DNA of 64,000 nt. It comes from Zhongshania sp. GTDB lineage: Bacteria; Pseudomonadota; Gammaproteobacteria; Pseudomonadales; Spongiibacteraceae. Under the pieces are notes generated by a model. That model did not search any database, was not told where the DNA came from, and worked only from the letters and a program-made list of their open reading frames with translations. The number at the start of each line of letters is the position of its first letter. Position 1 is the stretch's first letter. The DNA is taken from assembly GCA_018066965.1 (NCBI GenBank), contig JAGPVP010000011.1, forward strand, positions 1 to 64,000, given 5' to 3'. The translations under genes and the position numbers were made by a program. Positions 59,148 through 63,739 of this stretch are shown here, piece by piece.

Positions 59148-59259
59148 TGATTCTTATGACTTGAGCGCTAAGCTCGTGTAGATATTTTTATTTTAGTGAT
59201 CTGTGTTGAGTGGGGCCGCGTACAAACTGCGGACAATCCATAATAACCGAGGTGCTAAG

Positions 59260-60843
59260 ATGAAATTATCTACACGGGGGCAGGTGTTTGCGCTGTCATT
59301 ACTCAGTGCAAGCGTCATAAGTCAATTTGCACTTGCGTCTAGCCATCGGGAGGCACCGTTTATTGCCGGTTCGCCCAAGGTAGATGGTACAGATTTCTAC
59401 ATGTTCCGGAGCTATGAAGCTGGTCGCGGTAATTTTGTTACCTTGATTGCAAACTATCAGCCGCTGCAAGATGCTTACGGCGGGCCAAACTACTTCACCA
59501 TGGACCCAACCGCGCTATACGAAATTCACGTCGACAATGACGGTGACGCTGTTGAAGATTTAACTTTCCAATTTAGATTTAACAACGCCTATGGCCAAGC
59601 CAATGCATCGGGTTTAATTCGCGATGGTGGTATAGACACTGGCGCTGGCAGCGATGCGCAAGTGCCTTTGGCGGCGGTTGCGCCAGCGAGTGCTGTCGGT
59701 GGTCAAACCGGCTTGCTTAATGTCGTTGAAACGTATTCGGTTAATGTCGTAACAGGCGATCGCCGTACCGGTACTAGCACTGCAGTGAGCGAAGCTGGTG
59801 GCAGCAATGTTACTTTTACCAAGCCTGTTGATAATATCGGCGCGCTGACGATTCCTGACTACGAAACTTACGCCAACCAGTATATTTACGACGTCGCGGT
59901 GCCAGGTTGTTCTACCCCAGGTCGTTTGTTTGTAGGACAGCGCCGTGAAGGCTTTGTGGTGAATTTGGGTGAAATATTCGACCAAGTAAACCTTAATCCA
60001 CTGGGCGCACGTGATTCTCGCAGCAATACCATTGATGACAAAAACGTGACCTCACTGGCCTTGGAAATACCGTCAAGCTGCTTAACCAGCGGTGACGACA
60101 CGGTGATTGGTGCATGGACTACGGCAAGTAAACGTCAGGGTCGTGTGCTTAATCCATCGCCGACTGGTCCTACCGATACAGATTCCGGCAAAGGTCCTTC
60201 TGTAGAGCTTGGCGCGTGGACACAAGTCTCTCGTTTGGGTAGCCCGCTAGTCAATGAAGTGGTTATTGGTATCACCGACAAAGACAAATTTAATGCGAGC
60301 GAGCCAAAAGACGATGTGGCAAATTTCGGTGCCTATGTGTTGTACCCAACACTACCAGTACTGATTGACGTGTTGTTTCCTGGGGCTACCACCGTGCCGG
60401 CAACGCCGAGAAATGACTTATTGGCCGCTTTTGTGACGGGTGTAACGACTGGCCCGACTGATACGCCAGCAAACTTCAAGTTTACTGCGCCTGCAAACCT
60501 GACTACACCGGGTGAAATGCTGCGGATGAATGTGGCCATTGCGCCGGTAGTACCTGGTGCTGCGGGTTACAGTGACCTTGGTTTCTTGGGTTGTGATTTA
60601 GCAGGTTTCCCTAACGGTCGCCGTGTTACCGACGATGTGGTGGATATCGCGCTTACGGTTGCTGAAGGTGCGCTATTGGGTCTCAATGGTTTGCAAACCT
60701 GTGATCTTAGTGGTGCATCGCCGGCTATCGCTAACCCTGGTGGGGTAGTGAATGACGGCGCTTTACCGTCAACAGCTGATTACTTAACGGTGTTCCCTTA
60801 CTTGAACACGCCGATTCCTGGCGTAGCAACGGCGAATAGATAA
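59260..60843 (+). CDS. DUF4331 domain exported protein
   Basis: Signal peptide; ASSHREAPFIAGSPKVDGTDFYMFRSYEAGR; ATG at 59260. Confidence 0.88.
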   Translation: MKLSTRGQVFALSLLSASVISQFALASSHREAPFIAGSPKVDGTDFYMFRSYEAGRGNFVTLIANYQPLQDAYGGPNYFTMDPTALYEIHVDNDGDAVEDLTFQFRFNNAYGQANASGLIRDGGIDTGAGSDAQVPLAAVAPASAVGGQTGLLNVVETYSVNVVTGDRRTGTSTAVSEAGGSNVTFTKPVDNIGALTIPDYETYANQYIYDVAVPGCSTPGRLFVGQRREGFVVNLGEIFDQVNLNPLGARDSRSNTIDDKNVTSLALEIPSSCLTSGDDTVIGAWTTASKRQGRVLNPSPTGPTDTDSGKGPSVELGAWTQVSRLGSPLVNEVVIGITDKDKFNASEPKDDVANFGAYVLYPTLPVLIDVLFPGATTVPATPRNDLLAAFVTGVTTGPTDTPANFKFTAPANLTTPGEMLRMNVAIAPVVPGAAGYSDLGFLGCDLAGFPNGRRVTDDVVDIALTVAEGALLGLNGLQTCDLSGASPAIANPGGVVNDGALPSTADYLTVFPYLNTPIPGVATANR

Positions 60844-60853
60844 GGAGGCGTTT

Positions 60854-61084
60854 ATGAATACCATCATTAAATGCAGCCTGTTTATCTGTTTGGGGCTTGG
60901 CTTATCGGCGTGTAATAACGACGACGGTAAGTACGATGGTCGAGCAGGTGGCGGTGATTCGTCAATCAGTGCGAATCAGCTGCTCACCTCGGTAATTATG
61001 CAAGACGCAAATGCCGAGCCGATATCAGTGAATGATAAAAATATTACCGACAGTTCTGACCCTATTGATGTCGACAGTCTGTAA
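60854..61084 (+). CDS. Small lipoprotein of unknown function (76 aa)
   Basis: Lipobox LSACNN; RBS AAGGAGG upstream of ATG; immediately downstream of the DUF4331 gene. Confidence 0.75.
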   Translation: MNTIIKCSLFICLGLGLSACNNDDGKYDGRAGGGDSSISANQLLTSVIMQDANAEPISVNDKNITDSSDPIDVDSL

Positions 61085-62195
61085 TTTACCGGAAAAAATA
61101 GCGCGGCGATGTGTTCATCGCCGCGCTATTTTTTTAAGCGTACTATTCGCATTAAGCTCTGCAACTTTTTGCAGTAGTTTGTGGGCAGCGTCTCTCGACG
61201 GGCCGCAAATAAGCCAGCCCAGTGATAACGACGCCATTGTTTATCGTATTACTTCCTCATCTGCGGCTATAAATTCGGCGACCAATGGCACTCCTCAGCA
61301 GCATCTAGATGCAGCAAAGCAGGCCTTAATCTCATTTAGAAATACCGCTAATCCTCGTGATTTAGGTGATGCCGAACGCGAACTGGCGGCACTTACTGAT
61401 GATCAACGTAACACTGATTTTTATTTTTACCGTGCCTCACTCAGGCAGAGCCTGCATTTATTTGATGAGGCATTAGATGATCTCGACACGATTTCTGTCA
61501 TGCAGGGAGACAATCTTGAATCCCTGATGATGCGTTTCACCATTTCTTTTGTGACCGGCAAATACCAAGCCGCTGAGCAGGCTTGTGAGGCGCTTAAGCA
61601 TCGTGACAACAATCTTTATGCGGCCAGTTGCGCGCAGCAGCTACAAGCCGCGACTGGCGACCCGAGTACAGCATATCGAGATCTTAAACATGCGATGGCC
61701 GAATTTGGCGTGTTAAGTGACCGGCGGGCATTAATTTGGGCAAGTGGAACCTTGGCCGATATCGCCGAGCGCGCGGGTCGCGATGACACGCTTACGTTAT
61801 GGCAGCTTGCCTTGCAGCTTAACCGCGATGATTTGTATACCCGTGCGCGCCTTGCTGCGGCGCTGCTAGCGCATGGCGATTATGCGCAGGTGCTGTCTGT
61901 AACAGAAGATTATATGGCGGTGGATGCCTTGGCGGTGAGTCGTGCTATTGCACAAAAGCAATTGGGCGACGGTGATGCATTAATAACAACACTGCGAGAG
62001 CGTTTTGACGAAGCGCGTTGGCGTGGCGAAATTTTGCACAAGCGCGCCTACGCGCAATTTTTATTAGATATTGAGCAGCAGCCAGCGGCGGCCTTGGCGA
62101 TGGCAGAAATGAACTGGACGCATCAGCGCGAGTGGCCAGACGTCATTATTTTAGCGCGGGCACGCGATGCAATGAATAATAAGGTGACGCCGTAA
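61068..62195 (+). CDS. Exported TPR-like repeat protein
   Basis: Signal peptide RRAIFLSVLFALSSATFCSSLWAA; helical repeats RDLGDAERELAALTDDQRNTDFYFYRASLRQSLHLFDEALDDLDTI; no in-frame ATG after 61068 before the signal peptide. Confidence 0.75.
   Translation: MSTVCNLPEKIARRCVHRRAIFLSVLFALSSATFCSSLWAASLDGPQISQPSDNDAIVYRITSSSAAINSATNGTPQQHLDAAKQALISFRNTANPRDLGDAERELAALTDDQRNTDFYFYRASLRQSLHLFDEALDDLDTISVMQGDNLESLMMRFTISFVTGKYQAAEQACEALKHRDNNLYAASCAQQLQAATGDPSTAYRDLKHAMAEFGVLSDRRALIWASGTLADIAERAGRDDTLTLWQLALQLNRDDLYTRARLAAALLAHGDYAQVLSVTEDYMAVDALAVSRAIAQKQLGDGDALITTLRERFDEARWRGEILHKRAYAQFLLDIEQQPAAALAMAEMNWTHQREWPDVIILARARDAMNNKVTP
61093..61135 (+). terminator. 19-bp perfect stem, TGTT loop, T-tract; terminator/attenuator-like hairpin overlapping the TPR CDS start
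   Basis: AAAAAATAGCGCGGCGATG-TGTT-CATCGCCGCGCTATTTTTTT. Confidence 0.9.
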
Positions 62196-63283
62196 TGCCT
62201 CGGCTATTGTTGATATTAATATTGGCGCTGGTATCGACAGTGTTTTCCCGAACGGTCTTGGCGCATAAGGCCAGCGATAGCTTTATGTACATCAGCGCTG
62301 AGCAAATACGCCTAGATATTGCCGTGCAAGACATGGTGCGCATTCAGGCTTTGGATTTAAATAAGGATTCGGCGGTGAGTTGGGGAGAACTGCGCGCCAC
62401 TGAGCCGGCATTCTCGCAACTGCTTGCGCAGCGTATCGCGCTGAGCCACGGCAATGAATCCTGCCCGTTGGGTATTAAACTAAGTGGCATTAGCGAGCAT
62501 AGCGACGGCCCTTATGCGGTGTGGTCACTCACATCAAGATGTCTGTCCGAAGCGGCGGTAAGACTCGATTATTCGCTGCTATTCGATATCGACCCCCTGC
62601 ACCGGGTATTACTAGTCAGTGATTTAAGCGGCGAAAAGCAGTTAAGCGTCCTGTCGCCATCGAGTCGCTCGGTGGTCTTAGGCGAGCAGATTTCGGCGCT
62701 AAGTACCGCCGGTGTATTTTTATGGCAGGGCGTGGTGCATTTGTTGGTTGGTTACGACCACATGCTGTTTTTATTGGCCTTGCTGCTGCCTGCTACCCGC
62801 CGAAAAGGCAGCGGTGCTCAAGCACAAACTTTGCGGCAGGTATTCACCGATGTGGCCTTGGTGATCACCATGTTTACCTTGGCGCACAGCTTCACTTTAG
62901 TGGCCGCCAGTTTGGGTTGGTTTAGTCTGCCGTCGCAGCCAGTGGAAATTGCCATCGCCTTGTCTATTAGTTTGGCCGCAGCCATGGCGCTAATGGACGT
63001 GAACGTGCGTTTTCAGCGGGGCTTGGCGATGGGGGTAGGTTTAATTCACGGCTTTGGTTTTGCGGGAGTGTTGTCAGATTTGTTGGCAGCTAGCCCACTA
63101 AAATTACTGGCGCTGGGCAGTTTTAATGTTGGTATTGAACTGGCTCAATTGGCCTTGGTGATTTTGGTTTTACCGCTGCTATACCGTGTCAGCTTCCATG
63201 CGGTGTATCAGCGCCTAGTATTTCCGCTGGGTGGGGTGTTGTTGATCGCCAGCGGGCTTTACATGGCTTTGCAGCGTATTTAA
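62195..63283 (+). CDS. HupE/UreJ family membrane protein
   Basis: GVVHLLVGYDHMLFLLALLLPA; VNVRFQRGLAMGVGLIHGFGFAGVLSDL; ALGSFNVGIELAQLALV. Confidence 0.87.
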   Translation: MPRLLLILILALVSTVFSRTVLAHKASDSFMYISAEQIRLDIAVQDMVRIQALDLNKDSAVSWGELRATEPAFSQLLAQRIALSHGNESCPLGIKLSGISEHSDGPYAVWSLTSRCLSEAAVRLDYSLLFDIDPLHRVLLVSDLSGEKQLSVLSPSSRSVVLGEQISALSTAGVFLWQGVVHLLVGYDHMLFLLALLLPATRRKGSGAQAQTLRQVFTDVALVITMFTLAHSFTLVAASLGWFSLPSQPVEIAIALSISLAAAMALMDVNVRFQRGLAMGVGLIHGFGFAGVLSDLLAASPLKLLALGSFNVGIELAQLALVILVLPLLYRVSFHAVYQRLVFPLGGVLLIASGLYMALQRI

Positions 63284-63289
63284 AGTGAA

Positions 63290-63739
63290 TTAATTGCAGT
63301 GCAGTTTGATAACTTGCTGCGCGCGATTTTCCTGCTGCTTAATTTCTTCTGCGTTCAACATGCGGCTGCTGCCGTCTGGGTTAGTGATGCGGATTCTCGC
63401 GCCATTGGCTTGCAGTGACTGCATATTTGCGTTGGCTTTCGCACACAAGGCTGGGTCTTTGGGGGGCAGAATCTCTATTTTCTCTGGCGTGATTTCGCTG
63501 CTGTCGGTGTCTTGCTCGTCGTTTGTGTCGGCAAACATCCCATTGCCGTCGCTGTGGGTCGTGGCGCCGCTCCGTGTTTCTACAAAATCGTACTGGCGTC
63601 CCTTGGGTGGCTGCTGGGTAAAGTGTTGTTTGCCCTCGTTGTCGGCCCAGCGGTAATAGCCTGTTTTATCTGCATTGGCACCTAGGCTGCAAACTAAAAA
63701 TCCAGCGCAAAGCGCAATTGTGAGGGCAGTATTTTTCAT
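63290..63739 (-). CDS. DUF4124 domain exported protein
   Basis: Signal peptide; GYYRWADNEGKQHFTQQPPKGRQYDFVETRSG. Confidence 0.85.
   Translation of the reverse strand: MKNTALTIALCAGFLVCSLGANADKTGYYRWADNEGKQHFTQQPPKGRQYDFVETRSGATTHSDGNGMFADTNDEQDTDSSEITPEKIEILPPKDPALCAKANANMQSLQANGARIRITNPDGSSRMLNAEEIKQQENRAQQVIKLHCN

Follow-up and report, generated by a model that had tools for sequence, protein, structure and literature searches.

The closest described counterpart of the permease discussed here is the anglerase Ang-1, a HupE/UreJ-2 protein in which the first residue of the mature chain, a histidine (His1), binds Cu and Ni, and for which capture of the metal followed by its transfer to the permease has been proposed (Franco Cairo et al. 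2025, PMC12537917). On the regulatory side, extracytoplasmic function (ECF) sigma factors paired with ChrR use a promoter with the published consensus TGATCC-N16-CGTA, and singlet oxygen and peroxides are signals to which the ChrR regulons of Pseudomonas and Shewanella respond (PMC5507510, PMC4336711). Here we analyse a four-gene set located at positions 59260-63283 of a 64,000-nucleotide stretch (the window) of Zhongshania sp., which comprises positions 1 to 64,000 of contig JAGPVP010000011.1 in assembly GCA_018066965.1. The genes encode, in this order and all on the plus strand, an exported DUF4331 protein, a small lipoprotein, an exported tetratricopeptide repeat (TPR) protein and a HupE_UreJ_2 membrane protein; the locus is nearly identical to that of Zhongshania aliphaticivorans, with 98% identity for DUF4331. 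We propose that it encodes an apparently undescribed envelope system for the capture and movement of transition metals, switched on by an ECF sigma factor, a reading to which we give about an even chance; the association of the genes on which it is built is real and old.

Conservation of the gene set

A genome scan yielded 80 named loci, which become 81 with that of the window. TPR and HupE genes are found together near DUF4331, in the order TPR then HupE, in 65 of these loci, and in 61 of the 65 they abut or overlap. An open reading frame for a lipoprotein-like product of 70-105 amino acids directly follows DUF4331 in 78/81 loci; the same scan applied after HupE stops gave 2/63. In 15 of the 65 loci the TPR-HupE pair is inverted, upstream or divergent relative to DUF4331, and the link between the two has thus outlived rearrangement.

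The same association was observed in an even draw of the class, comprising 276 genomes, of which 25 contain DUF4331 and 80 contain HupE_UreJ_2. By hand count, a HupE_UreJ_2 gene lies at 5 kb or less from DUF4331 in 19 of the 25 DUF4331 genomes, compared with a rough chance estimate, derived from genome size, of less than 1% per genome. The presence of the two families is also associated (odds ratio 39, p=6e-12, a value not corrected for kinship of the genomes). Outside the class, annotated Streptomyces plasmid records contain DUF4331, a TPR protein and a "nickel transporter" that belongs to the NicO family and takes the place of HupE; DUF4331 and TPR are found together with a TonB receptor on an Adhaeribacter plasmid record, and both are also present on one from Miltoncostaea. 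Two Streptomyces plasmids carry, behind the DUF4331-TPR-NicO set, another DUF4331 gene with a sortase gene after it (L084:16067-18459 and L174:11234-13302).

The first-pass annotation of this DNA had suggested an undescribed envelope system and had made the suggestion depend on conserved co-occurrence across genomes. Co-location was found both in the 81-locus set and in the 276-genome sample, and the association is strong, extends over several phyla and survives rearrangement. That annotation did not mention ECF regulation, the hairpin resembling a terminator, the loop of EF-hand type or the links to secretion systems, all of which are described below.

The HupE permease and its N-terminal domain

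The HupE gene (62195-63283, plus strand) matches PF13795 with E=8.7e-38 and 129.9 bits, against a gathering threshold of 24.5. The permease motifs HxxxGxDH, FTxAHSxT and LIHG are present, and a histidine, encoded at 62264-62266, comes immediately after the predicted signal peptide (VLA/HKASDS, with the slash at the cleavage site). An aligned His directly follows an AxA-type site, with cleavage judged by eye, in 64/64 HupE homologues, and H1 is invariant in the A2 alignment. Mature residues 31-42 form an EF-hand-like loop, DLNKDSAVSWGE (62354-62389, plus strand), of the type D-x-N-x-D-G-x-x-T-W-G-E; searched with the pattern D-x-[DN]-x-[DN]-x6-E, it is found in about 62 of the 64 homologues. 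The lanmodulin-type proline at loop position 2 is missing in the window HupE and in most homologues, and the HupE profile finds EF-hand proteins in the PDB weakly. The loop probably binds Ca2+.

The AlphaFold2 model of HupE (predicted local distance difference test, pLDDT, 89.9) shows a beta-rich domain that leads into a helical membrane part, with the loop placed between helices 21-27 and 40-57 as a helix-loop-helix. The best Foldseek matches of the N-terminal domain are ZrgA, PA4063 and the Cu-bound Ang-1 structure 9GCE, with probability 1.00 and E values from 1e-3 to 1e-2. Sequence searches of the PDB with the HupE protein and profile gave no match to 9GCE, while, as a control, a member of another HupE subfamily (L126) matches it by sequence with E=6.5e-11. 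As modelled, HupE is of the "anglerase" architecture, with His1, a predicted beta-sandwich of metal-binding type and a permease, to which an EF-hand-like loop is added, which is new here; it is anglerase-like in design, yet a separate variant. The NicO partner of the Streptomyces plasmids has an N-terminus, AAA/HPLGNF followed by DSDHDGTVTDSE, with a His1 and an EF-hand-like loop as in the HupE proteins.

Of 40 HupE_UreJ_2 loci situated away from DUF4331, 39 show neither a neighbouring TPR gene nor an EF-hand-like loop, so the DUF4331-linked permease represents a distinct subtype; the remaining locus (L133) has both. At L133:3766-6221 the TPR and EF-hand HupE pair has no DUF4331 nearby, and the class sample shows no DUF4331 match for that genome. 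A second HupE_UreJ_2 protein is encoded in the genome of the window (L090:5786-6811, contig C108); it starts with AHKLAPS, and no EF-hand-like loop is evident in the stretch read.

In line with the first-pass annotation, which had reported no hydrogenase or urease genes in the window, a family search gave zero matches to NiFe hydrogenase in the whole genome, and the urease alpha subunit is encoded only on a different contig (C30, the window being C109). An accessory role for hydrogenase or urease as the primary function was rejected, since the former has no match and the latter is unlinked. The same annotation had tentatively attributed metal transport to the HupE-like protein, a role that we likewise infer and that the anglerase domain layout and the replacement by NicO in Actinomycetota support.

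A common ECF-sigma promoter

DUF4331 loci mostly share one ECF-sigma promoter, which is also found at the sigma gene, at relocated TPR-HupE pairs and at the TonB receptor gene. The motif GCATCY-N16-CGTA lies upstream of DUF4331 in 46/80 loci, compared with 0.16 expected from shuffles, and with the variants GAATCY and TGATC added the count rises to 67/80, compared with 0.41. It is likewise found ahead of ECF-cluster genes (18 of 45) and TonB receptor genes (9 of 16), and in front of five TPR-HupE pairs located outside the operon (L011, L012, L014, L020 and L045); almost none of the pairs still within the operon has it directly upstream. Near DUF4331, ECF sigma gene clusters were found in 37 loci, RskA-type anti-sigma factors in 32 and ChrR-type cupins in 8.

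Zhongshania and Spongiibacter have a -35 box changed to TGATC. The promoter of the window, TGATCT-N16-CGTA (59197-59222, plus strand, upstream of DUF4331), is retained by each of the 9 Zhongshania/Spongiibacter loci examined despite divergence of the spacer, and differs by one base from the ChrR-ECF consensus. An ECF-ChrR operon is indeed present in the same genome, on contig C7, with TGATCC-N16-CGTA as its own promoter; no RskA match was found in this genome, and the count of RskA-type promoters in it does not exceed background. Taken alone, the single match in the window genome is not significant; the weight of the window promoter derives from its conservation across nine loci with differing spacers. 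A scan with Rfam found no known RNA around the operon.

A TonB receptor family with conserved plug histidines (LDHGTDF, HxHGQGY) accompanies 16 loci. Two close paralogues are found in the genome of the window, and those of their upstream stretches that were read gave no match to the promoter motif. The first is preceded by a cobalamin riboswitch that scores 83.8 bits (L167:4405-4670, contig C72) and on whose far side cobB is encoded; this riboswitch and the neighbouring cobB suggest that at least part of the TonB family handles cobalt or a corrinoid. The second (L166:1695-4303, contig C67) is divergent from a gene for a weakly CopY/BlaI-like repressor.

DUF4331, the small lipoprotein and secretion systems

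The DUF4331 protein (527 amino acids; 59260-60843, plus strand) covers the whole PF14224 model with E=1.6e-127 and 426.7 bits, against a gathering threshold of 27. A signal peptide is followed by the invariant mature start SSHREAP, and many acidic residues are invariant as well. Its AlphaFold2 model has a pLDDT of 85.4 and a predicted template modelling score of 0.90; nonetheless, neither protein and profile searches nor a fold search identified a credible relative in the PDB, the best TM-scores being below 0.3, and a literature search on DUF4331 or PF14224 found no paper in the collection searched.

The gene that follows encodes a small lipoprotein of 76 amino acids (60854-61084, plus strand) with the lipobox LSAC, which belongs to a DUF4331-associated family without Pfam or NCBIfam match, characterized by a C-terminal motif of the type EPxxIN...DPxxI. 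In Pseudoalteromonas (L083:10532-11041) an immunoglobulin/cadherin-like domain is attached to this conserved C-terminal motif.

In four Rhodobacterales, Sulfitobacter, Paracoccus, Jannaschia and Marinovum (L082, L170, L172, L173), DUF4331 is encoded within a type II secretion system (T2SS) cluster that also includes an A24 prepilin peptidase gene, and in the last three genera a small protein is encoded directly behind it. In the Bacteroidota, the DUF4331 protein of Adhaeribacter carries a type IX secretion system (T9SS) tail, and a GspK homologue is present in the genome of the window. Because of these T2SS clusters, the T9SS tail and the GspK homologue, secretion of DUF4331 is likely; the protein is probably exported and either secreted or surface-exposed.

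Organization of the locus

The four co-directional genes of the first-pass annotation are all present in the order it gave, with coordinates that hold except for a refined TPR start. The longest open reading frame for the TPR protein spans 61032-62195; the ATG at 61068 is the better start because other Zhongshania (L002, L004 and L007) retain the overlapping frame, and it places the gene at 61068-62195 on the plus strand, overlapping the end of the lipoprotein gene by 17 nucleotides. TPR profiles score below threshold in the window protein; the Streptomyces and Adhaeribacter homologues score clearly as TPR, and a homologue lies directly 5' of HupE in most loci. The start of the HupE gene abuts the TPR stop.

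The junctions, described earlier as short or overlapping, need one correction: a strong hairpin separates the lipoprotein and TPR genes. It resembles an intrinsic terminator (61098-61135, plus strand), with a GC-rich 14-bp stem at 61098-61129 and a U-run, encoded by a T-run to 61135, inside the 5' coding region of the TPR gene; the folding energy for 61086-61145 is -33.9 kcal/mol. This long hairpin was found by direct folding, a generic terminator scan having overlooked it, and it recurs in the first TPR codons of L002, L003, L004 and L007. Lying between the DUF4331-lipoprotein and TPR-HupE pairs, it resembles an intrinsic terminator or attenuator, so the four genes may be two transcriptional units; its position at the start of the TPR coding region makes a translation-dependent attenuator possible. 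Downstream of HupE, a convergent DUF4124 gene (63290-63739, minus strand) is found beside the system in nine close relatives only.

A proposed mechanism and its alternatives

The gene set, its conservation, the domain architecture, the motifs, the promoter pattern and the secretion-system associations were all computed. Taken together, they are consistent with a pathway that would start when an ECF sigma factor is freed from its anti-sigma factor, of RskA type in most relatives and of ChrR type, encoded elsewhere in the genome, in the window's strain. The freed sigma factor would transcribe both gene pairs, DUF4331-lipoprotein and TPR-HupE, together with the TonB receptor gene in many relatives. 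DUF4331, exported and probably secreted or surface-exposed, would be held or assisted by the lipoprotein and would bind a metal or a metal-ligand complex; the metal would then cross the outer membrane, via the TonB receptor where this is present, to be picked up by the His1 domain of HupE, in which the EF-hand-like loop probably binds Ca2+ and may stabilise or gate the domain. From His1 the metal would be handed to the permease motifs, and the TPR protein may assemble the parts of the system. We infer the identity of the metal, the binding of a ligand by DUF4331, all contacts between the proteins and the direction of movement, for which import is favoured. A bolder version, in which a secreted DUF4331 of new fold and its lipoprotein deliver metal to a calcium-gated His1 permease, either HupE or NicO, as a widespread and undescribed route of trace-metal acquisition under one ECF sigma factor, is offered as a tentative extension, with a clearly smaller chance of being right.

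Several observations weigh against metal capture. No metal site is identifiable in DUF4331. The resemblance of the window HupE to Ang-1 is a fold match, with no match in sequence, and Asn41, the second Cu ligand of Ang-1, is not conserved here. A complete TPR-HupE pair is not found nearby in 16/81 loci, in some of them because of a contig end, and the TonB receptor is adjacent in only 16/81; its substrate, sought from families and PDB matches, was ambiguous among YncD/PqqU-, B12- and siderophore-like receptors, and none was named. Across the genome of the window, the promoter motif shows no clear enrichment (70 sites, 52 in the control). The NicO family includes exporters, and ECF factors controlled by RskA or ChrR are classically stress responsive, so a role in efflux or repair is possible. 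The locus might be a module against oxidative or photo-oxidative stress, controlled by ChrR or RskA, that protects the envelope or clears metal set free by oxidation; HupE would then export or redistribute the metal instead of acquiring it. The promoter of ChrR-ECF type, the ECF-ChrR pair of the same genome and the signals to which ChrR regulons respond agree with this explanation; however, most loci use a different ECF, of RskA type, the neighbours include no recurrent peroxidases, photolyases or repair enzymes, and many loci are paired with a TonB receptor, which is an importer. We regard the stress module as unlikely.

DUF4331 and the lipoprotein could otherwise be a separate secreted or surface-structural unit, such as an adhesin or matrix protein, for which TPR-HupE acts as a metal-loading or assembly helper. 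The two genes stay paired when TPR-HupE moves or is absent, the hairpin separates the gene pairs and the T2SS and T9SS links would suit such a product, but both pairs co-occur strongly and have a common promoter even when apart, which makes it distinctly improbable. A system centred on calcium or lanthanides, where the EF-hand loop and the acidic DUF4331 bind the ion and the permease moves or senses it, would account for the canonical EF-hand-like loop in both HupE and NicO partners, for the invariant acidic residues and for the PDB matches to EF-hand proteins. These matches are only weak, though, the lanmodulin-type proline is generally missing, and His1 and the HupE/NicO motifs are features of transition-metal proteins, so that this explanation appears very doubtful. 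Finally, a chance or ancestral neighbourhood with no functional linkage finds some basis in the general retention of gene order among related genomes, as on the clpB side; it is scarcely credible in view of the 15 rearranged loci, the distant phyla, the replacement of the permease by NicO and the common promoter.

Metal capture under ECF control, which we prefer, would provide a frame for the function of DUF4331, a family that is large, seems not to have been studied, occurs in at least three phyla and has no solved relative, and of a small lipoprotein family that has no database entry. It would also extend the idea of a His1 permease by an EF-hand-like loop, a second permease family and a concrete ECF promoter, and this promoter link makes the inducing signal and the metal findable.

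Comparison with described systems

With the anglerases Ang-1 and Ang-2 (HupE/UreJ-2, PDB 9GCE) the window protein shares a signal peptide, His1, a beta-sandwich of about 140-170 residues and the HupE_UreJ_2 membrane domain. Unlike Ang-1, which is without the loop in the aligned region, it has an EF-hand-like loop, and its fixed TPR, DUF4331 and lipoprotein partners are absent from the main text of PMC12537917, where DUF4331, TPR, EF-hands and sigma factors are not mentioned. The nickel permeases of HupE/UreJ type, exemplified by Rhizobium leguminosarum HupE, have in common with it the HxxxGxDH motif and the later His motifs in the membrane domain; conversely, the window HupE has an extra periplasmic domain, and its genome has no hydrogenase match.

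The nickel/cobalt NicO transporters of Streptomyces correspond in gene position, His1, EF-hand-like loop and TPR partner, but belong to another permease family, with a His-rich internal loop. ECF/anti-sigma systems with RskA (ECF19/SigK) or ChrR are encoded by adjacent genes in many loci and agree in promoter class, whereas the ECF-ChrR pair of the window's genome lies apart from the locus and RskA has no match there. In the papers on mycobacterial SigK that were read, no metal role was found for SigK itself. Lastly, the periplasmic Zn-binding proteins ZrgA and PA4063 have a fold similar to that of the N-terminal domain; both are stand-alone proteins, whereas in the window this domain is fused to a permease.

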